Origin: Lepidurus packardi
Lineage: Eukaryota > Arthropoda > Branchiopoda > Notostraca > Triopsidae
Assembly (NCBI GenBank): GCA_023053545.1
Contig: JAKZAN010000004.1
Coordinates: forward strand, 1,364,001-1,428,000
Direction: 5' to 3'
DNA: 64,000 nt
Made by a program: the position numbers and the translations under genes. Every line of letters starts with the position of its first letter. The stretch's first letter is position 1. A model generated the notes under the pieces. The model ran no database searches and had not been told where the DNA came from. It was given only the letters and a program-made list of their open reading frames with translations. This document shows positions 4,176-62,444 of the stretch, piece after piece.

Positions 4176-5135
4176 TTAAAAGTGAACGCTAGCGGTCTGT
4201 TGGTCTCTCCAGAAGTCCATAATGGAAGGTGTAGGCTGAATTGGGATAGTCATCTGATCAAATTGTTCTTCAAGATCAAAGACGTCTAATACTCTACGTC
4301 TAGCTCCACACACAGGAGTAGGTTTACACTCCGCGCAGTCCGTTGCACCCATGCCCATGCCCATTCCATTATTCTTGCAAGTGCAACAGGTCACCGTCGT
4401 CCTTTGGTCAAGAGTCACAGTCGTGGTCGAGATCGAGGTCGAGGTCACCACTTGGATTTGGACAGGCAAGGTCGTGGTCACGGTCAGGGATTGCGTTACG
4501 CTCTCTGTTTGGGTAGACAAAGTCAGCGTGTCCGTTGTCGTCGACACGAAGGAGGCGGTATTAGCAGTGTAGATGGTCGTGGTACGCCCGTTCAGGAAGT
4601 TCGATAGTGCGTCTCCGAGAAGTCCCCCGCCCAGGCCAACGCCAGCGAAACCTGCGCCAACGTTACCGGGAAGCAAAGGAGAGAACAACTTCGCTAACCC
4701 TGCAAAGGTAGCTACGGCTCCCAATGGAATTAATATGGCTGCGGCGATTCCCATACCAATGGCTGCTCCAGTAGTGACCCCGGTATTGCCCGTAAACGAC
4801 GGTGATCCTTGATTCTGTAGGCCTTGCAAGTCGTTTCCGTCTACGTCGACACCATCATCGTCATCGAATTGCGCTTGCTTGGCTTGGATCTCAGTGACCA
4901 GGCGGTCGTGTGGGTAGTGCTGGCGGGGGTAAAGTTTTTCGGTCGGTTCTTTCGTATTCGATTGAGTCTCTGTACTGAAAAGGTCGTCTACTCGCTGGTA
5001 GTTGTACTCAGCTGTCCCCAGAGGAGTCCATGAAGGTTCCAATCGCAGGACCTGGTGTAGTAGTTTTGGTACTTGGAAGCATTCCACGGTCACCATTAGG
5101 ATCAACAAAAGAAAACTTCCTACCTTGATCAACAT
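4176..5135 (-). CDS. secreted Ser/Thr/Val-rich mucin-like protein, family member 1 (319 aa)
   Basis: Function unknown. The single open frame starts at an ATG and needs no intron. Seen in order: a hydrophobic signal peptide (residues 1-19); a conserved LEPSWTPLGTAEYNYQRVDD segment near residue 33; an acidic region (DDDDGVDVDG, about 91-100); a Gly/Ala-rich hydrophobic stretch (about 122-155) long enough to span a membrane; a Thr/Ser/Val stalk (about 185-250); a Cys cluster opening with CCTC; a basic RRR; and the tail motif IPIQPTPSIMD. Two tandem paralogues downstream share this plan. Stalk threonines are likely O-glycosylated by analogy with mucins (inference). Opposite-strand frames here only mirror the repetitive codons. 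Confidence 0.85.
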   Translation of the reverse strand: MLIKVGSFLLLILMVTVECFQVPKLLHQVLRLEPSWTPLGTAEYNYQRVDDLFSTETQSNTKEPTEKLYPRQHYPHDRLVTEIQAKQAQFDDDDGVDVDGNDLQGLQNQGSPSFTGNTGVTTGAAIGMGIAAAILIPLGAVATFAGLAKLFSPLLPGNVGAGFAGVGLGGGLLGDALSNFLNGRTTTIYTANTASFVSTTTDTLTLSTQTESVTQSLTVTTTLPVQIQVVTSTSISTTTVTLDQRTTVTCCTCKNNGMGMGMGATDCAECKPTPVCGARRRVLDVFDLEEQFDQMTIPIQPTPSIMDFWRDQQTASVHF

Positions 5136-6851
5136 TTTTCACTTTTACGTTAAACCTTTGACAATCAAAGTTTCTTATGAATTGACGTTTCTGCACTTTC
5201 TTAAACTTAAAGTTGAATTCTAAACTACTTCCATAGTTCTTGAGTGTCTTAAAGTATTGAACAGTTCCTCAGAGTGCAAGGAATGCCAGGAATCTGACGG
5301 ATTGGGTTGCAAATCGAGCATTTTAGCTAAAATTTTTGGACTCATTTTTGCGAATAACTAGGCCCAACCCTTTCAATGAACTACCAATAGTTACACGCTA
5401 CCATAATTCCTTTCACAACATGATAATGTTCTCCTTTCCTTTCCTTTTGGTATTTTTTTTTCTAAAAACGTGCAGCCCACACCAATTATGGGATAGACTG
5501 GCCCCGTTTTTTTCTTATGTTAGTTTTAATTGTGTGGTTCACGGGAAACTTCCAGGTTGTTTAACAAGGGGATAACCGCCTAGCTTCTCCCGTCTTACTT
5601 GTCTTCCATGGCAAAGTAAGCTGAGAAATTAGACCAAGCATGGTTTGAACGCTAACGGAGTTTCTGTGAGGATGGTCTATAATTTTCGTTAAAAAATGGA
5701 CACATAAAAGGTCTGCTTACCTATATGAGGTGTGTGGTTTAAGCTTTGCGATGGAACCAGTCCAACCACATAGTCTTTTTGCTTTCCCTTCGTGCTGCCA
5801 AATATTCCCAATTCCGTAATTGTGGGGGACTTGCGGGTTTGCACGTGAGGTCAGTAACACAAGTGAGGCATGAAGTATTACCCTTAAACGGCAGTAAGTT
5901 GCATACCTTACAGCTGTGTCCAATACCATGCACGTCTACTTAGTTGTGGTATTGACTGTAAACTCTAACTGCTAATACTAATTAATATTTAACCATTATT
6001 ATTAACTATACTTGTAACTTATAGTAACGTGGTGCAACAAGTTTTTTCCATTATGAACCTTTAGCCGGATCCAGAAAACCATGTTATTTCGAGGTATTGT
6101 GTATATTAATAATATGTATACTAGTTCCTTCCTAACTGGGCTTGCAGTATAACGAAAATTGCAAAAGTGTAAGCCCCGGAGACTTGCAGCAAAAGACCCC
6201 ACCAAAAGAACCATTTCCGCCAAGAAAGCTAATTTGACGAAGTTCTGCAGTACGTTCCCATCCGTTGGACTAGTTGTCTTTATTAAAGCACTTGAACTCG
6301 CAGATGAAGCCGCTATTACTTTTTTAATAATGATCCTATAACTGATTAGATATCGTAATGATTCACTCGTGAAGTGTTGGAAAAGCACAAATGCTAGTAA
6401 GATAAAAAGATAACCAGACTTGAGTGTGTCAAAAGTTTTTGGTTACCTAATAGTAATGGTGTTCTACGGTAGGGTTGCAGTTTGTTCTAACTATTCGATC
6501 CGTTATTATTAGTCTACATTTTTGTATATTAGTACATGACATTGTAGTGCTTTAGCGTTGGTAAGTTGAAAACCTTTATTTCATAGAAATATTTCTTACT
6601 AATTTCATTCTGCTGTTATCATCTTCTTGTATATTAAAATTTTCAAGAATTTTATAAAAGAGACGTAAATTGCGCAACATCGAAAACTATATGCATGCTT
6701 AGATACACACATTTTTTTTAATTCAAAGTATGGGTAAGCTTAAAGGGGATGCGGTCTAGCTAAGAAGACTAGGTCTGGTTATTGGAAAGGTAATTCAAGT
6801 TGAATCCCCGGAACATTTTTGGGGTAGATAATTTTTTGTGGTCTCGCCAGC
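5136..6851. other. no gene supported
   Basis: Several frames of 60-130 codons occur on both strands (for example 6002-6388 minus) but none shows a domain, a signal peptide with processing site, or spliced continuation. No RNA gene was recognised. Confidence 0.4.
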
Positions 6852-7698
6852 CCACGAACCTGTTTAGGTTAACAATGAACTCCCTGTGCCACATTTGGTC
6901 AAAGAGACGGGTTTATTTAATGGATGTCGAAAATAATAAAGAGGGGGAACGAAAATTTTGGGTTTAACGAGGATTCGAAGACGACAGGGTTTGCCGGTCA
7001 AATGGACTGTATTTTCTCAAGGTTGAGCTGAATGCGAATATTGCAGAAATGACAACACTGGGAGAATATCCGAGCCATTTTTTATAGTAGCAAAGGGTAT
7101 TGCGTTAAAGTAACGTCGGCAAACACATGTCTAAGTCAACGTTGGTAAAGATGATTAAGTCAGGTAAACGGAGAATATTCTGGAAAGGGTAGAATGGGTA
7201 AAGAACGTATTCGAAATATAAGCATAGGAATAGTCTGAAACATTCCACTGTGGTCTGGAAAACTCTGGCCCCTGTTTTGTACTCGTGTCTTAAGAACGCA
7301 CAGTCCACGAACCTGTTTAGGTTAACAATGAACTCCCTGTGGCACATTTGGTCAAAAAGACGGGTTTGTTTACTGGATGCTGAAAATTACGAAGAGGGGA
7401 ACGAAAATTTTGGGTTTAACGAGGATTCGAAGACGACAGGGTTTGCCTGTCAAATGGATTGTATTTTCTCAAGGTTGAGCTGAATGCGAATAGTGCACAA
7501 ATGACACCACTGGGAGAATATCCGAGCCACTTTTTATAGTAGCAAAGGGTATTGCGCTAAAGCAACGTTGGCAAACACATGTCTAAGTCAACGTTGGTAA
7601 AGATTAAGTCAGGTAAATGGAGAACATTCTGGAAAGGGTTGAATGGGTACAAAAAGGTATACGAAATATAAGCATAGGAATAGTCTAAACCATTCCAC
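6852..7698. repeat. direct duplication of ~395 bp (6852-7248 and 7305-7698)
   Basis: The two copies are highly similar, beginning with CACGAACCTGTTTAGGTTAA and ending with CATTCCAC, offset by 450-453 bp, with small indels and a 56-bp spacer. Neither copy encodes a recognisable protein; the best frames differ between copies. The repeat abuts a BEL/Pao relic and could be part of its degraded flank, but no LTR ends were identified. Confidence 0.8.
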
Positions 7699-7719
7699 AT
7701 ATTGGAGATATAAAACAAA

Positions 7720-8640
7720 CGTTAATAATCGGAGTTAGGTTCAAAAAGACATAGTTTAGCGGTTGGTCGGACATAGATCCCAAATTGTGTTTTAACTTCT
7801 ACGGTTCGAACTGTTCCATCCTTTTCGGGGTAAACTTTGATAACCTTGCCTATTGGCTAATGACCACGTGGAGTATTCGTATCGATAACCAAGTATTCGT
7901 ATTGATATCTCCAGGTTGAACGTTCGGTTGCTTTATGACCCATTTCTTCGTTCAGTCAAACATGGTAAATATTCTTGCATCCATCTTCGCCAAATTTGGT
8001 TGGTTATTGCTTGCGCAGCGCGCCGTCGTGACAAAACTTCCTTGTCCAAAACTACATCGGGAGAAACGTTGGGCTTGGAATTTCCGTGCAAGAAATGATT
8101 AGGCGTGAGCGGTTTAGGAGCATCGGGATCCATACTTAAATGCGTAAGCGGTCGACTATTGAGAAGGGATTCGGTTCCAGCGAAAACTGTTTGTAAGATC
8201 TCTTCATTACATTTTTGGCCTTTCAAAACAACGTAAAGCGCTGATTTCGCAGATTTAATTGTCGTTCCCATACACCACCGAAATGCGGTGTGGATGGCGG
8301 GGAGAACTGCCATTCAATTTCTTTGACGGCCATTGCATTCGCAATTTTTCGTGATTCCAATTGTTTATTCCTTCGATTAGTTCCCGTTCACCGCGATGAA
8401 ATTGGTGCCATTGTCGCTGATACATTTGGCAGGCGTGCTTCTTCGGGCGATAAATCTTCGGAAATAAAGAGGAATCGTCGAGTTTTTGGCAAACTTCTAA
8501 ATGAACGGCTCACGTGGTTGAAAACAAGTGAAAAGACATCCCCACCCCTTCTCAGACTAATTCCAAATAGCCAACCGCTTTTGCCAAAGATCCGCGGCTC
8601 CCTTAGCCTAAGATCGCGGCTCACAGTTTGACAACCACTG
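7720..8640 (-). pseudogene. BEL/Pao retrotransposon integrase, decayed
   Basis: In successive frames the minus strand shows the BEL/Pao integrase order: a VCQKLDDSS-like block and ISDNGTNF near 8410-8470, the AKSALY region and the NSRPLTHLSMDP ... LTPNHFLHG block (about 8070-8250), the WRRWMQEYLPCLTERR block (about 7940-8000), and the DUF5641-type C-terminal domain with TPRG, GKVIKVYP and DGTVRTVEVKT (about 7720-7900). At least three frameshifts separate these blocks and an in-frame stop interrupts the C-terminal domain. No LTRs, protease or RT were found nearby, so this is an isolated fragment. Class assignment rests on the block order. Confidence 0.85.
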
Positions 8641-9494
8641 GCATTGATGATTGTTTGATGACCCGAGAGATTAAAAAGGGCTTAATTTGTTTTTAAACAG
8701 TAATTGATGACCTGACACAAAACTGTAGGAATGCTTAAGCAGGTGTTAATTTACAAATACATTTTAATATATTCTAGTCTCTATATCAGTAGCATCTTAC
8801 CGCCTATTAAAACCTTAAATGTGCCTAGAATCATACAACACCAGTAGTTTTAGCGTTAGTATTCTACGTTAGTCATTAATAACTTATTATCTTAGTTAAG
8901 AAATAATTTGTATAATCATCTAATTATATAAGTGTTAAAAGGTTACTGTTAGAAAGAAGTATGGATTGAAACTGATTTACAAAGCAATGCCTTATGAGTG
9001 TGAAGTCGTTTTTCGTCTATTATAAGTGAACATAAATCTATTAGGAATGAAACGGCTGAAACCTCCACTTAGGACTGAAATGGAAACGCGTTAATTAACC
9101 GTTAATGAAATAATCAACTAAGACTGTACTTTTCAATACCATCCGCGAGCGAAGCTGGGTAGGGCCCCGCTAAGGGTGTATCACTTTAGATGTTGTAATA
9201 GGACTTCATTTGGCGTCGGCTCGATCAAAACTTTGTCAACTGGTTTAGCATTCGATAGGGCAACAGAATTTGCGTTGCATTTGATAGTCGGCAATGCATC
9301 TCGCAATTTGCATCATGCTTGGCAACCTATTCCAATACAGACTAACAGTCTCGAATGCATTTTTCGCTTTGAAATACCCCTTTTCAATGTTGTTCCCAAT
9401 TTGTATTGTCATTTTTAAGGTTATTCCAAATTACTCGCACTCTGACCTTTAGTGTTTTTCTTACAAACAAGGAATAGTTGCGATATAAGAAAGT
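8641..9494. other. no gene seen
   Basis: AT-rich spacer. A plus-strand frame at 9176-9418 has no domain similarity that I recognise. Confidence 0.4.
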
Positions 9495-9660
9495 AACACC
9501 AATGGACAGAGTTAAGCACACGCGCCGTAAAAGACAAGCTTATTATTCAGTTATGTATAGATACAATTAACTATTTTTGTTAGTTAACACCAATGGACAG
9601 ACTTATAGGACACGTGTCGTAAAAGACAAGTTTATTATTCAGTTAAATAGGCACAAGTGT
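9495..9660. repeat. tandem duplication, unit ~91 bp
   Basis: Two copies begin AACACCAATGGACAG at 9495 and 9586 and share GTAAAAGACAAG and TTATTATTCAGTTA blocks. The duplication lies just beyond the 3' end of the minus-strand gene at 9840. TTTATT in each copy gives an AATAAA-type signal on that gene's strand, so alternative polyadenylation sites are possible (inference). Confidence 0.75.
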
Positions 9661-9839
9661 TGTTGAGGTATGACGTTTTTAGTCATGTGCAAATATTTCA
9701 GTATTTTTAGCCAGGATCTATAGTTGACGACAACGACACTTGCTTCGATTTACAATAAAAAAGGAAGGAAACTTCCTTTACGGAAACGTTTCTCTGCTAT
9801 TTACTGCACTGGACCTAAACTGTGCGTCGTGGACAACAT

Positions 9840-11021
9840 TTAAGGGAGAACGCTAGTATACTGATGAATGTGCGCAATGTCCATGACCGACAGTGTCGGT
9901 TGTATGGGGAGCGTGCTAGTACTTGACTCAATTATGTTTTCCTCGTTGTCCGATAAGATTCTCCTTCTGCGGGATAAAAGACTACATTTGATGACTGCAC
10001 CGCAGTTGCAGTTGGGACCTGCGTTGCATACGCAACATGTCGTTGTGGATGTCACACTCACAAAGCTGGGCGTCGTAAGTGTTGTTGTTGAAGACGACGT
10101 GTAGCTAGAAGTGTACACGTTTGTAGATGTGACTGTGCTTGTCGTCCCAGTCGTCACAGATACAGTCTGAGTCGAAGAGAAAGTTGTGGATACACTAACT
10201 GTTGCCGGGGTTGGAGATACAGTATCTGTTGTGACGGACACGGACACGGACACGGACACAGAGACGGTTTGCGAAACTGACACTGATACAGATACCGATG
10301 TCTCAGTAGATGAGAAGGTCATGGTACTAGATGACGTCTGGGTTTCGGTCGAAGAAAAGGTTGCGGTACTGGAAGAAGTCTCTGTTAGAGTCGTAGGGAT
10401 ACTTATAGAGCTTATGGCCGTACTGGTCCAGATACTCCAAGCCGTCCTGGTATCGTACTCCGTACTGTAGATCGTTGCGGTGCGTTTACCAAATATTTTA
10501 TTGAACCCTTCGATAACGCCCATTCCTCCAAGTTGCACCTCTGCGAGCTGTGTACCATCCTTATGCACGTTTAATGACGGAAAAAGGCTTGAAACCCCGG
10601 CTAACAAAGCTACTATCCAGGGTGCAACAATGGATCCAACAAAGCCCAAACCTAGTGCCGCTGGTATTGCCAAGCCTGCTACGGCTGCCGGACCAAATTG
10701 TCCTAGGAATAGTCGGTCGTCGGCATCTGGTACTGATTCCAATTCAGCTTCCCTTTCCTGATATGCAGGGACTTCTGGATGGTGTTGGATTGGGAAATAA
10801 GCAACGTTATCAGGATGATTCGTATTCAACTGTCGTTCGATACTGGAAATATGGTCAATACGCTGGTAGTCGTGTTCCACTGTCTCCACAGGAGTCCAAG
10901 AAGGTTCCAGTTGCAGGATATTACGTAATATTCTGGGCATTTCATAGCTATTCACGTACAGTACACAATAAGCACTAACTATTAACATTAAGGTGGTTTT
11001 GGCTTGCCATACCTTTGCCAT
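9840..11021 (-). CDS. secreted Ser/Thr/Val-rich mucin-like protein, family member 2 (393 aa)
   Basis: Function unknown; same architecture as the gene ending at 5135. Intronless frame from an ATG. Signal peptide about residues 1-25; conserved ILQLEPSWTPVETVEHDYQR at about 32-51; Gly/Ala hydrophobic region at about 108-145; a junction KRTATIYSTEYDTRTAW; then a stalk (about 185-315) in which Ser or Thr alternates with Val, including two (SV)n runs. The Cys module reads CCVC ... CNCG ... KC, followed by the tetrabasic RRRR, a furin-type site, and the tail LPIQPTLSVMDIAH. The (SV)n tract is coded by near-perfect GTC/GTG-type repeats, so its length may vary between alleles. Alternation of beta-branched residues would favour an extended beta stalk (inference). 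Confidence 0.87.
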   Translation of the reverse strand: MAKVWQAKTTLMLIVSAYCVLYVNSYEMPRILRNILQLEPSWTPVETVEHDYQRIDHISSIERQLNTNHPDNVAYFPIQHHPEVPAYQEREAELESVPDADDRLFLGQFGPAAVAGLAIPAALGLGFVGSIVAPWIVALLAGVSSLFPSLNVHKDGTQLAEVQLGGMGVIEGFNKIFGKRTATIYSTEYDTRTAWSIWTSTAISSISIPTTLTETSSSTATFSSTETQTSSSTMTFSSTETSVSVSVSVSQTVSVSVSVSVSVTTDTVSPTPATVSVSTTFSSTQTVSVTTGTTSTVTSTNVYTSSYTSSSTTTLTTPSFVSVTSTTTCCVCNAGPNCNCGAVIKCSLLSRRRRILSDNEENIIESSTSTLPIQPTLSVMDIAHIHQYTSVLP

Positions 11022-14000
11022 GGTTTTGGCTCACTCGATTCACAAGGTAGAGTTGGATACTTTAGTGCTCCTTGTAAAATCTAGAGTATTTTGCTGCTCT
11101 TATCCTCGGATTGAACTGACTGCTCAATACGTAAAACTTCTAATCTACACTCGAAAAATTGTATAAGTACCTCCTTTTCTAGCCCAGCCTACTACCGCAA
11201 TTATAGGGAAAGACCACCGGAAAAAGTTCGTCGACATTTGTGACCAGCCGTACGGTCCTAATCCCAAGGCTATCCTTTTCAGGTTAGGCAGTGCTGACAG
11301 CAAGCCAGTCACCGAGTTCCAATCTTGATTCACACGATATGTATATAAGTACACAAGTAGGTAGGCATATTTTATTCCGTTTTTTGAACTTCTTGCGGCA
11401 CAGCTTTATAAATTTTTTGCCGAAAACAAGAGCTGGAATACGTATCTACATGGCGTGCTCTAATGTATCTAGTTAACGAAAACCCTAATCTACTTCTCTT
11501 AGCTCAATAGAAGTGAAGAACTAAAGAAACTGGTAAGACGATGTACCTAAACTATTTATTTTTACTTCTTACATCCCATTTGTCTTGCAGTCGCACATCC
11601 AATAAATAAAACGTTTTTGGAAAACTTTCAATTTGTCCCGTTACCGTAAGGAAAACTGTGGATATTCTTAGGGGTAAGTATTATAGAGGACATAGATTAT
11701 ATAACATAACCTGTACGATCCTGTGAACTTTTACTTTGTTCAAGGCTGCTGCTCTTGTATTAAGTTTCTATGCTCATCAGCAGCAGTTTTATTATGGATT
11801 TGGGTTAATCTTAATTTAAGTGGCATCTTCGCCGAAGATGAAAGCATCATGCCATGATGCCTATACACGAAGGTGTAAAACGATGGCTTTTTAAAACAAG
11901 TCTGTATTTTTTGTTTAATGATGAGGGAAGAATGGGTTCTAAGAATTCGAGGACGTTGTAGCATGACAAACCTTAAAAAAGTTTTGTTTTGTAATAAAAC
12001 AGTACTTCCAATATGAAACTAGAGACCTGCTTTGGAATACAGTTCGCCCTTGAATGACAAAGTTCGTCTGTGGTTTCTTGTATTTATCCCAGGTCTTTGG
12101 CCTAATTTTTAATTCGACAACGTTGATTATTAATCAAGGAAATAGCTTAAACACTTAGTATTCTCAAGGGTTAGTCACTCAACTCTCAAATTTTTTCATA
12201 TAAATCATTAGAATCGTCACGTCTAATTGAATGCGGCGTTATCTTATACGTCTACTGAATGCAAGAGCGCAGATTACTGCAGCTCAACGTGTGAAGTATA
12301 GCAAACGTGATGTGCTTGAAACTTTTCTACGCATGATCCACTACTTTTTTGTCCGGTAATGCTATTGGGGTTACAGTTCGTGTCCAAAGACGCGGAAATG
12401 ATACAAAGAGTTCCTATAGGTTTTCCGCTTCTTGAGCCCGAACTGCATTACATAGCAAAAGGCACACCTTTTACATACAGATAACTTTAAAAAGCTAGCG
12501 CAAGAAAAATACGTTAAAAAAGAGTGAAGAAAACATTCTTGACATTCCTTGCTTAGAAGGTCCTCCTCATATCATCTGGCACCCACATTCTATACATACT
12601 TAATTCTGCGAGAACCGGTTATTTCCAAACAAAATTATCTATTGTATTATTTATTATTATTTTTTTTTACTTTTTATTATTTATTACTTATCCAAATTAG
12701 ATATGTAAACCAGCATATACGCAAAGCAAAGTAGATAGCGAATCGTCTTTACTAAAGTAGTTCGGGTGATCATGAAGCTGAATAGGAAACCACTTTCCTA
12801 AATTTCCGGGAAGTTCGTAATTGGGAAGCACTCAAATGGATATCCCGCCTCTAAAGCTTACACGGAAGGATTGTTTGATGACGTCGTATAAGCTCGTCAG
12901 CTATCGAAGCATAGACTTGCGAAGTAAGCTTGCGGAATATAAATTTTAGCGTAAGCTAAACATGTTCTGGGTAATTTAGCAAGTACCTATTGGCTGTTGG
13001 ACAGGTCAATGTATATGTTTAATTATGCGATTGATAACAGGATTCCTGCGTGATGGGCAATACGATCATTGCAGCTATTTGGGCAGTCCCATAGATTCTG
13101 ACTAAATGCCACTTTAATTACTGCTAAAATGGGAGGCAGGTGTTCGTTTCAGTTTCAGTTTCAAGCCTTGGAAAAGTTACCCTACAGGGATGTTGAAGTC
13201 TCGCATATATCCTCTCCATATCGTATGGGAAGACCCCGGTGTAAAAACTCCTGAGCCTTAGGAAAGGAGTAAAGACTCCAAATTAAGGTTAGATTAGTTT
13301 GGTTACCTTAAGCTAGGTTACATTAGGGTAGGCTATAGATTTAGGTTAGGTTAGTGGGTCAAGGTCCGTAGTCCTTTGACGTATTGTATAAACGAGAATT
13401 AAGCCTTCTTTGAATCTTAGAGTCCTTAACCAATAAGGGAAGTCCTCTTCAAGTCGGAAGGTTATTGGTCAACTGATGGATTGTATACTGTCGGGGTCCA
13501 TAGCCCTTGTGTAAGGAACCCTTAGTCCTAGCGTCGGCAACGCGACACGAGGAAGACGGACCACGATAGAAGGAACTCAAAAAGTCCTTCTGTTTAGTAG
13601 TCCTTGCGTCTACGTCACGGTTAACGCTAGTGCGGTACTTACGAGAATGCGATACCCTCATCAGGGACGTCGCCAGGAATTTTCAAAGAGTTTTCGCAAA
13701 ACCCCTTTTTGAGCCCCCCCTTGTACCATTTTTAAGAACAAAAAGGACTACGTAACATCTATTTTTTATTACACCTTAAGCATTCAGATCTCCGCAAAAG
13801 TACTGTAGTTTCCGTTGCCTTACGCACAATAAATCCGGAAACCGTCCTCAAGATTGTGTATATTTACACTCGACAAATAAGCACACAAAAAACTCACTGG
13901 TGCGAGGAGAGTTTTTGTTTTTTTGTTTTTTTTTTAAATCAGTAATCAAAAGTAGATGCAGGTCACTTAACTTGGAAATGGGGGAGAAGGACACAGCTCT

Positions 14001-14778
14001 TGCTGACCGATGGGACAATACTGATTTAAATTGATTCGTTTTAAAGAAAAAAGTGAAAAAGTCGAATCTTCGACAACATCGGTTTTCTTAGAAAGGGAAA
14101 CTGGGCTAGGTGCTAATTACAGGGGACATTATTTGCCAAGGAAGTAGCTGCAATTTCTCTTTGTAGCATGGTTAAATGGCCTACACCATATGCTGAGAAA
14201 CGAGAAGCCCCATTTATACGTTTGCATGTTAAATTTCTCAACTTGATTTTTTTCCCTTGAAAGCTACATTAGATTAACACTTTCTTCTTTCCGGTTGACA
14301 TTTCGAGGCCCTTCCGGAAAACAATTGGTACATTATTTTTGGAAAACAATTTGGTACGCGTACTTAGCGTCAATGTAATTACGCCGCTGACCCTCATATA
14401 ACAGGAAACTCAACAAAAACATCCTAGCAATAAGGTACATGGGTTGGAGCTGGTTTTAGTTATGAGAGGGGCAAAAGTCTTGGTTTATCATTGCTTTCGA
14501 ACAGTGTCGCTATCTATTGCCCACGATGAGAAGCTAGTAGTAATTGCAGTTCGGTCTTCGAAAGTGGTTAGCAATAATAATGAGTTATTAGCAATGACTT
14601 AATACCGCAAACACAGCAGTATTGGGACTAAAAATAATTAGTAAAAATGTATTAGTGAAATTATAAAAGCTTGGAAATAAGAAATATGAAAAATTAAGTA
14701 TTGGTTAACTTCGTCTAAATTAACCAAGTGTCATCACAATTCAACACAAATATGGAGATTAATTTGTTCAGAAGGTCC
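11022..14778. other. gene-free stretch with degenerate TTAGG-like repeats
   Basis: No gene could be supported in 3.7 kb. Positions 13290-13365 hold scattered GGTTAG/TTAGG motifs, related to the arthropod telomere unit but too irregular for an array. Frames at 11740-11964 and 13449-13661 (minus) have no domain. The sequence is otherwise AT-rich. Confidence 0.45.
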
Positions 14779-15885
14779 TTAGAGGGCTCGGGTAAGCATC
14801 TGGATGTGCGAAATGTCCATAATGGCCGGCGTAGGTTCAATTGATAGAGTCCGCAGTTCGATTATTTCATTCAAGTCTCTTCTCTTTCTCCCGATGAGGG
14901 CGCTACATTTAATGAACCCTCCGCAGTTACAATTACTGTTGCTACTATTGCACTCACAGCAGACTGTTGTATTGTAGACCGTGTTGGTGACGGTAACGGG
15001 GACCATTAGTGTAATTACAGTGCTTGTCGTGATGGTAGCAGTAGCTGTGACTGTCACATTTGAAAGCAGTGTTGAAGTTTCTGTGACTGTGCTGGCTATA
15101 GATGTGCACGTAAAGGACGTACTAGTGACTGTGTTAGTCGCCGTTTGAACAATTGTAATCATCGTTGGAACTAGGACGGTAATAGTACTTTCGACAGTAA
15201 AATACTCTGTCAGTACCTTGGTGATTGTCTCAGCAGGAAGGGTTACTGCTGGTTCCGTAACAGTTGTAGTCGAAGTGGACACAAAAGTCGACAGCGATGT
15301 TGATACTGAGATTGACAGCGATACCGATACCGATGTTGTGGTTGACACCAATATCTTGGTGGCTTCAGAAACCGATGTCGAGGTCACTATCGATGTTGCG
15401 TAGATGGTATTTGCGCAAGTACCATAAAAGTTTTCCCTTTCTGCTCCCGACCCATAATAGTAGTAATTTAACCCTCCAGTCGTGAATAATGCTAAGGCTG
15501 TCAAAGGTAAAACTGCCGCGACAGCAACACCCACACCGACTATTACAGGTATTGACAATCCTGTAGAAGTACCAGGAATGAAATGATCGATTGGATGATT
15601 CAAGTACGGGTCATCAAATAAGGTCTGATCCAGGAGAAACTCGTCATTGTAGTTTTCTTTCTTCCGATCTACGGAATTTGGCGAAATTCGTTGGCCAATG
15701 CGGTGCGAATAAGATCTTAAACTGCGGTCAGAACTTTCCATGTCATTTTTGGATTGCGTCTCTGTACTAGTCGTCGAAAAGAGGTTCTTAAAGAGCACAA
15801 GGTCAGACACGTTTAAATTTGCCACTGATGCTATCGATAGAGCACTAAGTATCACTACGTACACCATTAGGAAATGTTTCACCAT
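14779..15885 (-). CDS. secreted Ser/Thr/Val-rich mucin-like protein, family member 3 (368 aa)
   Basis: Function unknown; third member of the tandem family. Intronless frame from an ATG with a signal peptide (about 1-22). It lacks the LEPSWTP block of the other two but keeps the STETQS motif, the hydrophobic stretch (about 111-136, VIVGVGVAVAAVLPLTALAL), a Tyr-rich patch, the TIYATS junction, a long Ser/Thr/Val stalk (about 165-315), the Cys module CCEC ... CNCGGFIKC, a basic RKRR site and the tail LSIEPTPAIMDISH. The stalk is less regular than in member 2 and contains several Asn-X-Ser/Thr sites. It is the most diverged copy. Secretion or membrane anchoring cannot be decided from sequence alone. 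Confidence 0.85.
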   Translation of the reverse strand: MVKHFLMVYVVILSALSIASVANLNVSDLVLFKNLFSTTSTETQSKNDMESSDRSLRSYSHRIGQRISPNSVDRKKENYNDEFLLDQTLFDDPYLNHPIDHFIPGTSTGLSIPVIVGVGVAVAAVLPLTALALFTTGGLNYYYYGSGAERENFYGTCANTIYATSIVTSTSVSEATKILVSTTTSVSVSLSISVSTSLSTFVSTSTTTVTEPAVTLPAETITKVLTEYFTVESTITVLVPTMITIVQTATNTVTSTSFTCTSIASTVTETSTLLSNVTVTATATITTSTVITLMVPVTVTNTVYNTTVCCECNSSNSNCNCGGFIKCSALIGRKRRDLNEIIELRTLSIEPTPAIMDISHIQMLTRAL

Positions 15886-29940: not shown

Positions 29941-31449
29941 TTATACGCTGATATTCTTTACATTCACTACTGTGAGTCCACGGCCTTGGTCCTGTGCGTA
30001 CTGCATAATGATCAAATAGTAGGTGATAATGGTGCCAAAAACCTGCAACAAGAATTCCAAGATTCAAAATAAAGTTTAATGAAAATTCTTACGGATGGAA
30101 TCATTTTCCTGCTTATTGTGAATACACCATAGGCGGTGATTTCCACATTCTTGGCAGTTATATGACTACGGAAAGACTGAAGCTGGACGTCCAAAGAACC
30201 ATGCTCGCCTCTGAAGTCCCCATCGGAAAATGGCATTCTCCCGACTACTTCTTTACACCTATTCACCTACAGAAATAAAACTTAAATGCTAACGTATAAT
30301 TAAAAAAAAAAACAGAAAATACGCTTACGGCTGTGGGGATTAAATCCGCAGCCCATATCACAAACAAAAGTTCAGCTATACGCTGAACAAGCATCAGTGT
30401 TGTTTTCGTAAAGACCATGCTTTCGCCAATATTTAGCTTAAGCGCGAATATTGAAACGTAATACAAACTGCCGAGGATATGCAAGAGTTGGCACAAAAGA
30501 TAGAGCAGCAAGGCCAAACCAGTGTAGGCGTTAACATCGCTGACTGCCTTTTCGAGCAGGACTGAAGTAGCTTGCAGCTTCTTAAGTCGATTGCGAAATT
30601 TCTGCGAATGGCCAACGTCATGGGTGGGAGATTTCTCCAAAATTTCAACTTGGTAAGAACAAGATTGGTCAGGATACAAGTCATGGGCAATTTTGTCTGA
30701 AAAGTCCTGGTAATAGCTGGCCAATGTGTGGCAAAACATGAACAGTTGTATCGGCAACATCCATGTGGATATAGAAAAAAATGCTCCCAAAAATTCGAAT
30801 ATGATGTTCCCAATCAAATGAATTCCGGTACCCAGTGTAAAAATTGGACTTCTTAGGGCTTCGGATTCATCACTGATAAAGTAAACCCGGATGATTTCAA
30901 ATATTATCTAATATTCAAAGTATAAGGTTTAATTTTAATTTTAGTTCTTCATAATACCGTTCGTACCGTTAGCGACTTCATAAATGTGAGAAGAAACGTC
31001 AAGCGCCATAACTTGTAGCTTGTGAAGGTTGAGCATAGAAATCCTTGGATTTCTGTAATAGTATTGAGAGCCGATTCTAAAGCCGCTTTGTTGGCAAGGC
31101 GAATACGTGGAATAAAAGTTGTGGAGCAAATCATGCTGCCAAAAAACAATACGTCAGCTAATGCATTGGGTGTGTTTCTTACTGTTTGATAAGTCAAGTA
31201 GTCGACTGTCAGAGTGATTTGTAGAGCAGTGGTTAGTACCCAGAGAACGGTAGCAACATGAAGTCTGGCGAACTGAATGTGAATATATCCGGAACTTAAT
31301 GACGTGACGAGAACAGGTAGACAACCCATCCATTTCAAGAGAGAGACAATTTTCAAAATAGCTAATACAGAACTAGGGTGATACACTTTTGAAGTGGACC
31401 CAGTGGGTTCCACTTTAGTCTTGCTTGCCTTGCTTGGTAATACCCACAT
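29941..31449 (-). CDS. gustatory receptor, insect-type 7tm_7 family (445 aa, 4 exons)
   Basis: Seven-transmembrane chemoreceptor of the arthropod Gr family, expected in sensory neuron membranes as a ligand-gated channel; ligand unknown. Exons: 30967-31449, 30329-30907, 30093-30266, 29941-30042, all phase 0, closing to 446 codons. Exon 1 begins at ATG (MWVLPSKAS); an upstream TTG in the same frame is not needed. Several hydrophobic helices are visible, for example around LSLLKWMGCLPVL-like text in exon 1 and the helix before FVIWAADLIPTA at the end of exon 2. The last exon has the Gr signature as GTIITYYLIIMQ (TYhhhhhQ). The exon 2 core IFTLGTG and the ELLFVIWAAD block are shared with the neighbouring receptor copies. 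Confidence 0.9.
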
Positions 31450-32301
31450 GTTTTTGGTTCGACTCTTGCTCAAATACTAACGAATTTGCACTCGGATAAC
31501 CTGTACAGCCTTAGTGCTTCTTCACTTTTTCGTCACGTGATAGGTATTTTTCTATAATGTATAGTTACATTCATAAGGGGAAAGTGTCCACCTTTTGTCG
31601 TTCTACCAAGTGGATGGGATGGCACCCTTCATAGAGCCAGCATTCAAATTTGAGAAGCAAATAGGTGGGTATTCCCTTGAGCTCATCGATTCTTGTTTTG
31701 TTGCTTCTAGTATATATTTTCAAAAAGGAATTCATCGCTTTATTATCGCGACGTTCCTTAAAGTCAAAATCAATTGTCATTCGTAATGACACAATTTTAA
31801 TATAAAAAGAAACTGAATAATTGAAGAATAAAAAGGACTGCAGTCTCTTAGACATAATTCCAATAAATTTGGAATATCGTAATAATCTTATGTATTTTAA
31901 TTAAAAAATATACATATTCGCAAAGGCTAAATAACGATTTTGACATGAAAATAAGGATGTAATGGTTTGCTGAATAAAGAAAAATATCTTAATTATTTCC
32001 AGAAACTACACTCAGAAGGACAATTGTTTGCTTGATTTTAATTACTCGTTGCTTTCGGTACTGTCGTTCCGATGCTATAGCCCTTTGCGTACCGTACAGT
32101 ACAATATTCGAACTGTTGATCGCTGTGTGGACGGAAGATAATTTCTTCCAATTTTCTTAATTTTTAAATTCTTTTAGTTTCTTTGGTCAGAAAGCTTACC
32201 TCAGAAGACTGGATTAAGCCACGACTCAATAAGAAATCAGAGATCATGTTTTTCGTTTCAAGTATTTATTAATAAATACATTTCCTATCTTTTTCGACAA
32301 T
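31450..32301. other. no gene seen
   Basis: Promoter and spacer between a receptor gene and a cuticle pseudogene. A minus-strand frame at 31571-31855 lacks any recognised domain. Confidence 0.4.
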
Positions 32302-35285: not shown

Positions 35286-36885
35286 CTAGTGATCATCTTT
35301 CGCGAACTGCACAATGATGAGAAAGTAGGTGATAATAGCGCCCAAGACCTAAACCAAAAATTCCTTACTTTTTTAAGTTTCAGATCAACCTACCAGGAGA
35401 CCAGTGATAGGCGCAAGCCTATGTACGCTGGTTATGAACATTAAAAAAAGCAGAAGGGGTGTGATACTTACAGGCGTTATGATTTGCTTGCTAATGGTAA
35501 ATAAACCAAACGCACTGAATTCTATATTTATGGCAAGGATGTGTCGACGGAACCACTGAAGCTCCGCGAAGTGCAAGTTGTACTTTGTGACTTGGTTTTC
35601 GTCATGAAACATGATACACGGGAACGGCGTATTCATGATTTCTTGCTTGCATTTCTTCACCTGAAATGGAAACACATCAGTTTTAACATCTTTGGATATA
35701 TATTTCATTAAAAGAAATTATTATACTGCTGCAGTAAGAGTATCAGCCACCCAAATTATAAACAGCAGCTCGGCTACATCTCGAAATATATTCCGAATTA
35801 ACAACAACACCTGGAGCTCGTCAAAGCCCTCTCTATATGATAAAGATACAGGAACAACTGTTCGGAAAAACATGTGCAAACCGCCGAGAATGTTCACAAG
35901 ACGGCAGGTCATCAAAAGCAGTAATATCAATGCAAAGTACGCATCGACATCATCAGCCGCTCTCACAAGTTCAATTGAAGCTGATTGTAAGGTTTTAAGT
36001 CTGTGTTGTAATGGCCTAGTTGCTTGACGTCTTTCAAGGAAACTTCCGTCTTGTTTCAATGCATTCTCCAAGTCTTCAAGTTGGCAAGGATCGTTGAAGG
36101 TTAATTCTGTTTGAATCTTTTGCGTCAAGCACGTAAAGTATTGAGTGAATGTACGGCACACAATGTAAAACTGTAGCGGTATGACCCATAATGCCAGATA
36201 ACTATACAACAAATAGACTCCGTACACTATAGCTCCAACAGTGCCATTTCCTGTTCCCAAAGTGAATATTGAGGTATGAATCAATGCAGTCTTCGCGCTG
36301 GGAAACAAAACCGCTTGTACGACAGCGGGTAAGGACTATATTTATATAGAAACATTATAGTTAGTTAAAGAATCAAAACGAAGCCCACTTAGATTACCAA
36401 TATGAACTCCAAAATGATCGCTTTTATCCATAAAGGAAATTTTGAAGTCTCATCGAGCCTGGGATGTAATAACCTATGCAATTTGAACGCACTATTCAAC
36501 GCAGATTCTAAAGATTCTATGCGAGTGAGTGTAAGTCGCGGGATTACGATTGTCGAGCAGCAGAAGCTACCATAATACATTCCATAAACTAACACGTCAG
36601 TTACATGTAACTTTGTAAGAACAAGTTCTTGATATATTCGGTTGCGAAAATGGTTTGAAGTGAAATGGCCCATAACCAGAGCATGGTGAGGTAGTGCCAT
36701 CTAGCAAAACGAATATGCAAAAGGTTTGAAGTCTCGCTAGACCAGAGAACGGGTAAGTGACCAGTCCATTTCGAAAATGAGATAACTCTTAAAACAGGGA
36801 GTAGAAACTTAGGATAGTTGATCGCGGAAGAAGGGTTCGTAATTCCTTCGATTTTCGTAGTAAGATTCGTTTTGAAGAAAGACAT
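35286..36885 (-). pseudogene. gustatory receptor, complete except for one frame break in exon 1
   Basis: Gr-family receptor with exons 36398-36885, 35727-36335, 35472-35660 and 35286-35348. ATG at 36883-36885 (MSFFKTNLTTKIEG). Exon 1 is 488 nt; all other exons are multiples of three, so one base is missing, located between the FATEYIKNLFLQ and TDVLVYGMYYGSF segments near 36600-36612. Were it present the frame would give about 449 aa, matching the neighbours. Exon 2 carries IFTLGTGNGTVG, CRLVNILGGLH and ELLFIIWVAD; exon 4 ends with IITYFLIIVQF. Either a very young pseudogene or a sequencing error; typed as pseudogene because the window reads as broken. Confidence 0.85.
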
Positions 36886-37765: not shown

Positions 37766-37894
37766 TAGATGTAATAATACTCAACACCAATTTCTTTAAA
37801 ATTGAAGAATCCTATTAAAAAAGAATAACGCAGAGCGACCCTGGACTTCGGTTAATATGTTCAGGGGCGTGGCCACTCGTCCTTATACGTCCCC

Positions 37895-37902
37895 TATATA
37901 AG
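37895..37902 (+). promoter_or_regulatory. TATA box of Kazal gene 1
   Basis: TATATAAG within CCCCTATATAAGGCATGTTT, a block conserved at Kazal gene 2 (43800-43820). The ATG follows 82 bp downstream of the box. Confidence 0.8.
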
Positions 37903-37983
37903 GCATGTTTAGCCGTCCAAAAAGCTCCATTACAGACTCATTTCTTTGCTAAAAACAGGTTAAAATATCACTGGATAAGAATC

Positions 37984-38289
37984 ATGAAAGCGTGGTTTGT
38001 AATTATCGTGACGCTAGGATGCCTATTTACGATTACTCAAGAAAGCCAAGGTAGAATCGCACATCATGTTCATCCTTGCGCCTGCCCAAGGAATTATGAT
38101 CCCGTATGTGGTGTTGACGGCATTACGTACGCCAACTGTTGTACTATGGAATGTGCGGGTAAGGCAGTGAAGGATGATTTTTATTCCTTTAAAAGATTTG
38201 CTAGTCAATCGGTAAAACATATATATTTATTTTCAGGAGTCTCAAAACGTCAGCATGGGCCATGCGATGGAGGAGACGACTCCCGGTAA
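37984..38289 (+). CDS. Kazal-type serine protease inhibitor, small secreted (75 aa, 2 exons)
   Basis: Exons 37984-38158 and 38237-38289 join in phase to 76 codons. Residues 1-23 form a signal peptide (MKAWFVIIVTLGCLFTITQE...). The rest is one Kazal domain: CACPRNYDPVCGVDGITYAN, then CC, ECAG and a final PC, the six-Cys arrangement with the VCG-x-G-x-TY core. Note the extra adjacent Cys (NCC), where family members usually have one. Such inhibitors block extracellular serine proteases; the target is set by the residues after the second Cys (here P-R-N), giving no safe prediction. The gene lies between two receptor remnants of opposite strand. Confidence 0.92.
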   Translation: MKAWFVIIVTLGCLFTITQESQGRIAHHVHPCACPRNYDPVCGVDGITYANCCTMECAGKAVKDDFYSFKRFASQSVKHIYLFSGVSKRQHGPCDGGDDSR

Positions 38290-42198: not shown

Positions 42199-43456
42199 TC
42201 AACTTCCAAGTAACTGGACAAGGCTATTTCGCTTCTGCATTCCACATATTTCATTAATCGCTCCTGCTTCGTCTTCGGGTCCATCGTCATCCTCAAGCGG
42301 GTCAACATCATTTTCATTGAATAAATCCACGTCTCTTTGCCGAATGCGTAGGTTGTGTAGAACACAGCAAGAAACTATAATCCGGATCACTCTTCTAACA
42401 TGCGCTTTTACGTACAGGAGTCTTCGCCAAATCATTTTCAAATCGCCGAAAGAATTCTCTATCGTTACTCTTGTGGACGAGTGCTTCCGATTAAACTTCC
42501 TCTTCTCGGGAGTATTCGCGCCTGAATGCTTGAAGGCTGGGATGAGCCAGTCAAGGCACGGAAATGCGGAGTCACCAAGAATATGGTAGGTGTCGTTCCG
42601 GAACAGACTTCTTCGATCAGTTGAAGCTGTTCTGAAGAGGCCTGAATTTCGAAAAACACGGGCATCGTGAACACTGCCTGGGTACCCGGCAAAAATGTAG
42701 GAGAATGCACGATTAGGAAGACACACAGCCAAAAGAATTACAGAATGAGAAAATTTTCTGTTCAAATAAGACTTCTGATCAATTGACGTAGCGTCTATCC
42801 TAATATGTGATCCATCAATGGCACCAATAACATTAGGGAAACCAGCGCGAAAAGAAAAATGGTCGGCAACAGACGGTTGTTCTTCAGGAGCTGGCCACTT
42901 GATAAATTCATGCTGATGCTGCTCAAGAATTGATGTTATTCTGTCAATTGAACGCCACACAGATGAAACTGTGCGGCCAAACAGCACCGATATTTCCCGC
43001 ATGGTACACTGATTAGCCAGGTACCATACGGTAATATAACACATTTCTTCCACGTCCATGGGCTGGTATAGCCACCACTTGCTGCGGTTCTTGGGCAATT
43101 GACCTCGCAGAAGGATACGAGGCAGGCAAATGTGGAACGGGTCATGCGAAAGTGGATCCGAAAAATATCCTCCAAGAAATGCGAAACTACATGTTTCAGG
43201 AAACTGCCACAGATATTTCTAGGTTATTAAAACTATAGGCAAAATAATAAGCGGTGTAAATCACATACCCCGAATTCCTAGCAAGTTGAGAATTATTCTT
43301 GACATGTAACACGTTGCAAGCAAGAGAAAACGCTGTACTTGAGCTCCCATCATCGTCGGAATCTTCATCTTCCATTAGTTCCAAAGAAGACTCTTCAACT
43401 AGCAAGTTCTGCAAAACTTCGTTAGCACAGAGGGCCAAAGCTTGTGATTCTAGCAT
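42199..43456 (-). pseudogene. Harbinger DDE transposase (HARBI1-like), one frame break
   Basis: Exon 1 43269-43456 (ATG, acidic N-terminus with MEDEDSDDDGSSS) and exon 2 42199-43218; the junction phase leads into FLKHVVSHFLEDIF and FRMTRSTFACL, the conserved pre-catalytic region. The downstream frame (LRGQLPKNRSKWW onward, 299 codons) is offset by one base, so about one base is missing near 43105-43120. The DDE_Tnp_4 triad is present: Asp in IGAIDGSHIRI, Asp in ILGDSAFPCLDW and Glu in TIENSFGDLK. The tail is acidic (DDDGPEDEAG). Because the rest is intact, either recent inactivation or a sequence error is possible. Confidence 0.88.
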
Positions 43457-45046: not shown

Positions 45047-46675
45047 TTAAATTAAAGTAGAATTTCCAGTGCAAGCGGGGGATGTGTCCTGATTATCGAA
45101 CTGCACAATGATAATGACGTACGTTGCAACTGCTCCAACAACCTAAAACACTCCCTTTTAGTGATGTAATTTCTTAAGAAAAATCAATAAAGAGACAATC
45201 AAATCTTACTGCTGGAAGAATTTTCCTACCAATTGCAAACATTCCGCAACCAGTAATTTCCGCGTCAACGCTCAAAACTTGGTTGCGAAACCAATGAAGC
45301 TTTTTATGGCCACGAAAGAGAAATACATCCAATATTAAAGAAAATAATAACTTAAGATTTATACCGTTCACAGCACTTACCTTGAGACTATCCTCAGCAC
45401 CCAAATCGTGTAGCAGCAATTCATCAACTTTTAGCTTAGTGTCTTTGACCTTAGAACTGAAGATTTAGTCGAAGTTTTAAATGAAGATCGAACTGGTTAC
45501 ACTCACGTTGTAGAAAAGCCAATCCGCTGCCCAAATAACTACTATAAAACTCATAAAATCGTGGCTGAAAAACAGCAGAAAACGGATAGTAGTAGCAATC
45601 CACGAAAAGTCTTGATGAAGGGTCTGGTTTTGCAGAATTTCTGATAAGAGTAAGTAAAGTGTATGCGATCCACCTATGAGATTCGTCAGTCGACATGTCA
45701 TGAAAAGTAGGAGAGGGAAGCTAAAGTAGGCATCAACTGCTTGGACCGCCTTCTTTAGCTTAATTGTGACTTCTTGCAAGTTTCTGATTCGCATAGAATA
45801 GGAGAGAGAACCGGACTCGTTCTCTTGCTTCAGGCCTCCAAGTTGGGTATCTTGAACGAGGTGCAATTGCTGGTTAATCTTCGATCTGAAGTGAGCAAAT
45901 TGATGACCAACAGTTTGGCAGATTACTAGCAATTGCATAGGGACTAGCCAAGACGCAGATAGGTTGTACATCAGTATTAGTATGTTCAGCGTACCCCTCA
46001 GGAAAAGATGGGATGTCCCAAAAATTAAACTCAAGCGAACGATGTCTTTGTTAGGGTTGTAATACTTGCACAATATTAAGAATAACTATTTTTGAAAATA
46101 AAGAAAGAGAAAAATAAAAAAAATCTTAATATATTAAGAGCTGAGAATAAGAAGAAGCTCGAATTATTCTTTCTCACCAAAATTGCATTAAGCAGGCCAA
46201 CGGGAATAAATGTCACGTACGAGAACTTCAACTTCTTCAAATTTGGACCCAGCAAATCACTTGAAGCTGATAGATAGTTAAGAGCTGATTTAAGGGATGT
46301 AATGTTCCATAAAGTTAAGCGAGGTACAACAATCGAGGAGCATAGAAAGCTTAGGTTGTCTAGCATGGCAACTACCTTCGTAGTAGAACTATCAAGGGAA
46401 AAGAATATGGCAAAGACCGTATCCACTAAGTCTACACACTGAAAAGCTAAGGTAGTAAGACAGAGAAAGGTCAAAACAGAGAAACCAGTAAAGAGAAGTT
46501 CGAAATCCTTCCCATTCTGAATTATCTGAAAAGGTAAGAGGCCTGACCAGTTGGTAATTCTCAAGACTTTCTGGATATTAATTACTGAACTACTACCGAA
46601 ACTGGATTCTGGTGATTGGTTAGGAGGACAAAAACTTTCAACTTTAGTTTGCCTAACTTGTTTCAGGCAATCCAT
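45047..46675 (-). CDS. gustatory receptor, 7tm_7 family (443 aa, 5 exons)
   Basis: Exons 46178-46675, 45507-46085, 45381-45449, 45210-45299 and 45047-45142 are all multiples of three and close to 444 codons. ATG at 46673-46675 (MDCLKQVRQTKVES). Exon 1 ends with the SIVVPRLTLWNITSLKSALN region; exon 2 contains LIFGTSHLFLRG, FMTCRLTNLIGGSHT and FIVVIWAADWLFYN; the last exon carries VGAVATYVIIIVQF, the Gr C-terminal signature. Unlike its neighbours it has an extra intron (45300-45380) splitting the former exon 3 between DSLK and LHWFRNQ. It is intact and well diverged from the gene at 29941, so it is probably a functional receptor; ligand unknown. Confidence 0.9.
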
Positions 46676-54750: not shown

Positions 54751-54790
<40 letters not shown>

Positions 54791-61031: not shown

Positions 61032-62444
61032 TTATACTTTAGGATAGACAACATCAGCAGCAATACCACAGCGATTCACTCCGCGTTCTAGAAGCATGTA
61101 GCCTTCGCGAAACGCAAATAAAAAAAAGTTACTACTTTTGTTCCATGTTTATATCAGAGTTTTACCGTTTAAACCCCAGGTTGTACCCCAGGAGTTCTTA
61201 ATCTTCCAATAATTAATGCCGTTCAAGGTACCATAACCGACAAGAAGTACGGCGTGGTTTGTAGCAAGCCTGCATTGACTTTCAGTATAGACTCCGCTCC
61301 TGCATTTTTGGAATGAGTTTAACTTGTCTTATATTTGAAAAAAATACATACTCGTAGAGTTTGTAACTCGGCCTTTCAGCGTCCATAGCGACATTCACTG
61401 GTCCCTGAGCTTCGACAAATTTAGTCATCAGCAGCCCCTCATTACCTTCCAGTTCCGTCCTTACGTACGAGGCAACGTTGCCAACTTGCATATTAGTCGT
61501 AAATCTGCAAGTTCCGTTCTTTCATATACAAACCACATAATAATATGTTAATTGTCAGTTTTAAAACATTGTGAAGAATAGTTCGACTTTTCAAGCAGTT
61601 ACCAGTGCCGTATAGGGATATGTAGTGTCTGAAGCAATACCAACGGTATTCTTTATCAAGTAATCATAGCTATAGCTGGAATCGCCTCCCTGGCAAAGAT
61701 TGTTACCATAACCCGTGCTGCAATCGACTAATTGCTGCTCACTGAAGGTTCTTTTGATGCCTGATTTCTTGCAATTGAAGAATCTACTCGTACAAAACAT
61801 GTCAATAATTTGAATTAGGTTAATTAATTAGGTATAGCTAAAAAATCTTGCTAGGTATACTCAAGAGCAGCAACAGTTGAAAAGGCATAACACGAACCGC
61901 AATCGCCCTGATTTTTTACGGGAGTCATGCAAGGATCCGTGCTGTGGTCAACCTGAAAGATATGAAACAAAGCGGTTTCAAAGGTGACAGATACGAGCAG
62001 GGTATTTCGACAACTTTACTGTGGCAGTCTGACGGACATCGACCAAGGAGTCAGCATCAATTGACTCTCCACTACGGGATTCAACCCTGGTCTTGATCGG
62101 TTTTCGAATGTTCCCGCATCTGGTACGTCTGTATTCTTCGTCATCCATGTCGGAAAGCTCGTTGTGAGCCAGCGTGTACGTCTCGAGTCCAGCGGCTTGT
62201 CTTGCATTGTGTTCCTCGATCAACTTGTTGCTCTTCGCGAAGTTCATGCGGGATTTGGCTTCATGCTCCTTGTTTTTGTAAATCTTTCCATGCTTCTCCT
62301 GGAATTGAACAAGAAATGAAAAATTAGACTGCAATAAAACTTTAAGTTTTAGTTTGTTACTTTGTATTCCTTCCACGCTTTGTCGGTGTCAGCCAAAACT
62401 GCCACGACTAAGCCAGCTAGTGCTAAGGCAAGTACAATCTTCAT
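61032..62444 (-). CDS. cathepsin L-like cysteine protease (335 aa, 7 exons)
   Basis: Paralogue of the gene at 21302-22717, in inverse orientation. Exons: 62361-62444, 62020-62298, 61861-61952, 61603-61783, 61352-61518, 61166-61299, 61032-61102; the five internal exons have exactly the same lengths as in the other gene. Signal peptide [19 protein letters not shown]29-type propeptide; catalytic Cys in [15 protein letters not shown], His in [10 protein letters not shown], Asn in [12 protein letters not shown]. As in the paralogue, Tyr replaces the usual Trp after the catalytic Cys. Likely secreted or endosomal protein degradation; digestive role is inference. Intact frame and splice sites. Confidence 0.94.

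Follow-up and report, generated by a model that had tools for sequence, protein, structure and literature searches.

In this study, we report on three genes, A, B and C, located within a 64,000-nucleotide stretch of the Lepidurus packardi genome (contig JAKZAN010000004.1, positions 1,364,001 to 1,428,000; hereafter the window), and show that they belong to a larger family whose reading frames are constrained to stay open, and that the genes are real. As far as the searches reach, the family is undescribed; it is possibly lineage-restricted, and probably made up of mucin-like secreted or surface proteins. The evidence comes from near-copies of genes elsewhere in the genome, which have kept their frames intact and, in the stalks of two of the pairs compared, have kept serine and threonine (Ser/Thr) as a residue class.

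Gene family and its distribution in the genome

Three minus-strand, intronless open reading frames (ORFs) of shared plan had been proposed to be paralogous in an initial annotation of the window, and this was borne out: the ORFs were found as described (Table 1) and their similarity exceeded chance. In BLASTP comparisons A and B matched twice, in the N-terminal half (E = 1e-25) and at the C-terminus (E = 1e-07), and B matched C at E = 7e-09 over the C-terminus; the direct comparison of A with C was not significant (E = 0.30), so that their kinship runs via B. Apart from A, B and C, nothing in the window matched at E <0.5 in BLAST searches.

The genome searched comprised 108.6 Mb in 344 contigs, the window belonging to contig C3. 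A family of three genes proved to be an underestimate, as the searches identified 11 loci on four contigs: A, B and C on C3; D, E, C', F and A' on C1; B' and F' on C6; and H on C2. Ten of these are open ORFs of 319-610 amino acids (aa), and the remaining one, C', is broken by a frame change near the start and an internal stop. The count is a lower bound. Query B alone recovered all 11 loci, and five more whole-protein searches, together with one using the C-terminal module of B, returned all or subsets of them; the module search recovered 10 of the 11, missing A'. No extra locus was found at E <0.01 in the seven genome searches. The nearest locus not counted was a Ser/Thr-rich frame at G000:C6:3215771-3216052, matching gene D at E 0.0102. 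All 10 open ORFs are single-exon at the coding-sequence level, in agreement with the initial description of A, B and C as intronless; the splicing of the genes around them, also part of that description, was seen by eye for one cathepsin-L-like gene.

Protection of the reading frames and selection

Three pairs of copies (A/A', F/F' and B/B') were compared, using the substitution matrix from the flanks of each pair as the neutral yardstick. Based on flank indel rates, 9.3, 12.3 and 9.2 frameshifts were expected in the A, F and B pairs, respectively; none was observed in any of them, and every coding indel was a multiple of three. Premature stops were likewise absent over the three pairs, against 15.9 expected. 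The C/C' comparison revealed 1 frameshift against 12.5 expected, indicating that C' broke recently.

Overall, constraint on the amino acids was weak. The ratio of nonsynonymous to synonymous substitution rates (dN/dS), determined by the Nei-Gojobori method, was 0.40-0.95 in the young pairs: 0.40 for B/B' (bootstrap 0.28-0.58), 0.73 for A/A' (0.46-1.45) and 0.95 for F/F' (0.59-1.60). As the A/A' and F/F' intervals include 1, constraint in these pairs is indistinguishable from neutrality by dN/dS. The older comparisons gave 0.34 for C/D, 0.41 for C/E, 0.40 for D/E and 0.31 for A/B (dS 2.3), and B/H was saturated. A dN/dS near 1 had been put forward at the outset as grounds for rejecting the family; the two intervals that include 1 point that way, and the strong protection of the frames, together with 0.31-0.41 in the older comparisons, points the other way. 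Over the three pairs 196 replacements were counted against 272.6 expected (observed/expected, o/e, 0.72), the hydrophobic part and linker having the lowest ratio (0.52) and the stalk the highest (0.87). For synonymous change the o/e was 0.78 in A, 0.68 in F and 1.45 in B.

Retention of Ser/Thr in the stalk

Over the three pairs pooled, 23 stalk Ser/Thr codons left the class against 72.1 expected (0.32 of the neutral rate); 6 against 21.4 did so in the F pair and 7 against 39.7 in the B pair. Swaps between Ser and Thr within the stalk were neutral (12 against 10.7 expected), and so were exits from the Val/Ile/Leu class (14 against 14.4; 0.97), the stalk counts being small and the Val test one that would miss weak constraint. 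Ser/Thr codons beyond the stalk left the class at an o/e of 0.72-0.83 and were thus less constrained than those within it. These counts show that in the B and F stalks it is the Ser/Thr class, and not the position, that has been retained. With the class kept, the positions free and the length variable (76-362 aa as measured among members), the pattern is that expected of a glycan-bearing stalk, and the retention of Ser/Thr while Val/Ile/Leu drift favours a mucin-like O-glycan stalk over a valine-zipped beta fibre, in which the alternating Val ought to have been kept.

Shared anatomy and proposed mode of action

Common to all 10 open members are a hydrophobic segment with an invariant Pro, a Ser/Thr-rich stalk, six invariant C-terminal Cys, at least one Arg pair, and a tail; in A, B and C the tail is of the (Q/E)PT type. 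The hydrophobic segment starts at residues 106-156 in every member; in the numbering of A, the invariant residue in the 10-protein alignment is Pro137, while Gly127, Gly129 and Ala142 show conservation of 90% or more. Gene D alone has two further weak hydropathy peaks (1.73), which lie within its stalk. Between subfamilies, the tail is best conserved (45% identity), followed by the Cys module (42%), and the region after the signal is least conserved (24%). The six Cys come after the stalk, and no member has an N-terminal Cys module; the stalks of F and F' contain a further 11 and 13 Cys, respectively. N-glycan sequons occur within the Cys module or next to it in half of the members (C, D, E, F and F'), and B' contains five copies of a 156-bp (52-codon) unit. 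Signal peptides of all members were judged by eye. Of the signal peptides initially assigned to A, B and C, all three have the hydrophobic N-terminus by eye, and a hydropathy peak >1.6 over 19 residues was found in A and C, not in B. An AlphaFold model of A, built from an alignment of the three window sequences, was unusable (mean predicted local distance difference test, pLDDT, 35.7; predicted template modelling score, pTM, 0.15).

From this anatomy we infer that the proteins are secreted, O-glycosylated, disulphide-bonded and assembled, and we infer their tissue and role, as follows. The N-terminal signal would send the protein into the secretory pathway, where the stalk, poor in charged residues, would be O-glycosylated into a rod that is stiff and hydrated. 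Disulphides would form in the six-cysteine module, which would cap or link chains, the Gly/Ala hydrophobic segment may anchor the chain in a membrane or pack chains together, and furin-type trimming would take place in some members only. The products may form a coat on an epithelium, the gut, the cuticle or the egg.

Several observations weigh against this mucin-like reading. The A, B and F pairs were picked because both copies are open, a choice which favours the frame result, and the replacement o/e values of A and F (0.70 and 0.74) are not below synonymous change in those pairs. The A pair showed no Ser/Thr retention (10 class exits against 11.0 expected). Repeats in the B/B' stalk alignment may exaggerate the agreement at Ser/Thr; the F pair has small indels only, yet shows the retention. 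An N-terminal hydropathy peak >1.6 (19 residues) was found in 5 of the 10 (A, A', C, E and H). Whole-protein Ser plus Thr (S+T) is below 25% in A (19.7%), A' (20.9%) and F (23.1%), and stalk proline is 1-4%, unlike classical proline-, threonine- and serine-rich (PTS) domains. Moreover, the stalk would end up in the cytosol if the signal were cleaved and the segment were a true membrane helix.

Alternative explanations

The last point leads to a type I membrane protein, with about 100 N-terminal residues outside, the Gly/Ala segment spanning the membrane, and the stalk and Cys module forming a cytosolic signalling or phosphorylated tail. The segment is of transmembrane grade in all 10 members (hydropathy 2.0-2.6 over 21 residues) and has the invariant Pro; Val/Ile/Leu are retained in the region class formed by signal peptide, segment and linker (10 leave against 23.1 expected); and in eight members negative charge is higher in the 30 residues preceding the segment than in the 30 following it, with H reversed and E equal. 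The positive-inside rule nevertheless gives this topology weak support, because the 30 residues after the segment have no net positive charge in 8 of the 10, and a long Ser/Thr stalk, six invariant Cys and sequons fit the secretory lumen better. We regard this arrangement as unlikely. A silk-like or amyloid fibre or adhesive made of stacked, alternating (S/T)V strands had been the initial interpretation of the stalk, and has become quite improbable. It draws on (VS)n-type runs and on an excess of (S/T)-V alternation over same-composition shuffles in B and H (z 3.7 and 4.1, respectively); the corresponding values are 2.1 in C, 1.9 in A and 0.1, no excess, in A'. Alternating runs of at least 6 residues are absent from A, A', F and F', the run of B consists in part of a hexamer microsatellite (10234-10267), and the stalk Val/Ile/Leu are unconstrained, as described above.

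The initial annotation had also taken the basic site to release a C-terminal peptide. The tail is indeed the most conserved region and is preceded by a basic run; the furin-type motif R-x-[KR]-R, however, is present in only six members (B, B', C, D, E and H), the other four having RRR or RR only and A' being reduced to RR, so that a general release is not supported. As the Cys module is also nearly as conserved as the tail, a precursor of a secreted peptide has been weakened to a very unlikely explanation. Still less probable is membership of the 'Cladoceran-specific protein' (CS1/CS2) family found near the Pasteuria resistance loci of Daphnia magna. The CS1 proteins are 239-365 aa long, their transmembrane domain lies close to the C-terminal end, they carry YxVC or FxVC as a motif, and the Cladoceran-specific family is said to have over 100 members (PMC9894429, PMC11193740). 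In favour of membership, the present host is probably a Daphnia-like branchiopod. Both families are duplicated and have Ser/Thr that may carry O-glycans, predicted O-glycosylation being described for CS1/CS2 (PMC9894429), and C, D and E have Y-x-x-C shortly after the hydrophobic segment. Y/F-x-x-C is confined to these three, its third place is never V, and no YxVC or FxVC was found in the 10 proteins; compared by description only, the present family further differs in having the hydrophobic segment in the N-terminal half and 11 loci. Finally, decaying duplicates with no protein role would account for the broken C' and for A/A' and F/F' dN/dS values indistinguishable from 1, and are hardly credible in view of zero frameshifts and zero premature stops in three pairs.

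Comparison with databases and known systems

As far as searches of Pfam, NCBIfam, PDB, viral, bacterial and archaeal sequences and the literature reach, the family is undescribed, in line with the initial statement that no named family was known. Neither the three nor the ten proteins matched a Pfam family at E <0.1, and with the ten, up to E 1, only LST1 (best E 0.13) and Sporozoite_P67 (best E 0.15) appeared; no match was found among PDB sequences up to E 1 with either the three or the ten proteins. NCBIfam returned seven families up to E 1, of which 'ser_rich_anae_1' matched two of the ten proteins (E 0.00025 at best, with no cut-off indicated), and DnaJ models matched A at E 0.09-0.19; these were read as resemblance in composition or Cys spacing, not as homology. 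Among viral contigs, query B yielded 5 pattern-matching stretches and the ten-protein alignment 28, and among bacterial and archaeal genomes query B yielded 76, with no relative at E 1e-3 in any of these searches. No published description of the family turned up in literature searches of partial coverage.

A composition cut-off used for fly mucins (S+T >25%, P >0.1%, length >300 aa; PMC13373891) is reached by seven of the ten proteins (B, C, D, E, B', F' and H). A classical mucin combines a proline-rich PTS domain with VWD or SEA domains (PMC1552070), which were not found in the Pfam scan of the 10 proteins. Insect mucin-like proteins, namely JiangShi (PMC9339309) and the fly Muc genes, are likewise secreted, with a Cys-rich motif beside a long Ser/Thr stretch. 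JiangShi has an N-terminal chitin-binding domain, none being found in the present family, which in turn differs from both in its internal hydrophobic segment, conserved tail and low stalk proline. We know of no Drosophila salivary glue (Sgs) gene with the plan of six Cys, hydrophobic segment and tail. Likened by description, the Sgs proteins, some of which are heavily glycosylated and have internal repeats, are expected to evolve fast (PMC6352337). The genes of the Drosophila 'atypical mucins' Sgf1 and Sgf2 are clustered and lineage-restricted, and in the proteins a Ser/Thr-rich region precedes six or seven Cys at the C-terminus; likened by description only, they have 9% Pro and 161-228 aa and are reported not to be glycosylated (PMC13373891).

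Fast-changing surface and mucus proteins easily escape homology searches, and the present family is a case in which the composition of the stalk, not its sequence, looks conserved. A bolder proposal, and in our view a long shot, is a fast-turning, block-duplicated surface glycoprotein system selected for sugar-carrying capacity and not for sequence. It would protect gut cuticle or egg from spore-forming parasites by serving as a variable coat, either a decoy or an attachment layer, which the conserved tail would dock. The host molecules to which parasite spores attach in Daphnia are described as not identified (PMC9894429). The link to parasites is speculation; as intronless and easily cloned candidate coat proteins, the members would be directly testable.

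Duplication of the gene block

Along the direction of transcription, the gene order is C, B, A on C3; D, E, C', F, A' on C1; and B', F' on C6. Block segments, comprising genes and intergenic DNA, align between contigs at about 77-89%. On the simplest reading, a block C-B-F-A was copied between three contigs and different genes were then lost, D, E and H being more diverged members. A recent retrogene origin was considered and rejected; the genome searches turned up no intron-bearing relative. An upstream block with TCAGA is common to C, D and E; since a TATA-like box was found in one of ten genes, upstream of D alone, the promoter evidence is thin.

Between A and B lies a retroelement-like fragment (window 7933-8313, minus strand; weak DUF5641 match, below the cut-off), which may have been a factor in rearrangement of the array. 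Long open frames of a non-LTR (long terminal repeat) retrotransposon, recognised by eye, adjoin the C1 array (L009 at C1:5696958-5702230, minus strand, L010 and L012-L013), with further fragments within and alongside it. Adjoining the C6 copies are two Cys-containing frames, PAN/Apple-like by eye (L019, C6:10000993-10004718).

Features of genes A, B and C

Table 1. Position of genes A, B and C and their predicted protein features in the window
Feature	Position	Strand	Remarks
Gene A, single-exon ORF, 319 aa	4176..5135	-	84-85% identical in protein to its near-copy A' (G000:C1:5731566-5732531)
A, signal-peptide-like hydrophobic N-terminus, residues 1-19	5079..5135	-	hydropathy peak 2.17 at residue 2; cleavage by eye
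A, Gly/Ala hydrophobic segment, residues 121-146	4698..4775	-	hydropathy 2.18
A, short Ser/Thr stalk, about residues 191-248	4392..4565	-	46% S+T
A, six-Cys module, variant spacing, residues 250-276	4308..4388	-	six Cys invariant in 10/10
A, basic run RRR, residues 279-281	4293..4301	-	not R-x-[KR]-R
A, conserved tail, residues 297-319	4179..4247	-	block with the highest identity between subfamilies
Gene B, single-exon ORF, 393 aa	9840..11021	-	near-copy B' at G000:C6:9991871-9993685
B, hydrophobic segment, residues 123-143	10593..10655	-	hydropathy averages 2.11 across 21 residues
B, Ser/Thr/Val stalk with (VS)n runs, about residues 189-328	10038..10457	-	58% S+T
B, six-Cys module, residues 329-346	9984..10037	-	ten-protein alignment
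B, RRRR, residues 351-354	9960..9971	-	furin-type R-x-[KR]-R
B, conserved tail, residues 370-393	9843..9914	-	ten-protein alignment
Gene C, single-exon ORF, 368 aa	14779..15885	-	relatives on C1: D, E (open) and the broken C' (G000:C1:5720039-5721106)
C, hydrophobic segment, residues 114-134	15484..15546	-	hydropathy averages 2.55 across 21 residues
C, Ser/Thr/Val stalk, about residues 161-308	14962..15405	-	48% S+T
C, six-Cys module, residues 309-327	14905..14961	-	ten-protein alignment
C, RKRR, residues 333-336	14878..14889	-	furin-type
C, conserved tail, residues 346-368	14782..14850	-	ten-protein alignment

Surroundings in the window and genome

Elsewhere in the window, a minus-strand cluster of exons (30263-31476, 35721-36335 and 45477-46085) resembles chemosensory receptors of arthropods, of the gustatory kind; out of four pieces scanned, three matched Pfam 7tm_7 (E 6e-05 to 1.5e-04), though below the curated cut-off. 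An open DDE_Tnp_4 transposase frame (42199-43218, minus strand; E 2.9e-34) and a Kazal inhibitor domain (37819-38289, plus strand) were also identified. The cathepsin-L-like gene mentioned above occupies about 61-62.5 kb, with introns visible by eye and a cathepsin propeptide exon at 61978-62388 (minus strand). The Kazal and cathepsin-propeptide matches, like the weak 7tm_7 ones, are in keeping with an arthropod.

Across contigs C1-C5 and C42, 26 matches resembling Cu/Zn superoxide dismutase (SOD) were found, several of them clustered on C2 near 1.45-1.48 Mb. Exons of Vitellogenin_N lie just downstream of SOD-like exons on the same strand in two places, C1:706141-707720 followed by 710317-714694, and C4:11908701-11908085 followed by 11906792-11903280 (minus strand), each pair being only putatively one gene; Daphnia vitellogenins with an N-terminal SOD-like domain have been described (PMC2678069), and the host is on these grounds probably a Daphnia-like branchiopod. 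Additionally, the window contains an uninterrupted run of 27 C at 54755-54781 and two tandem copies of a 170-bp unit at 1962-2299, with 91% matches.

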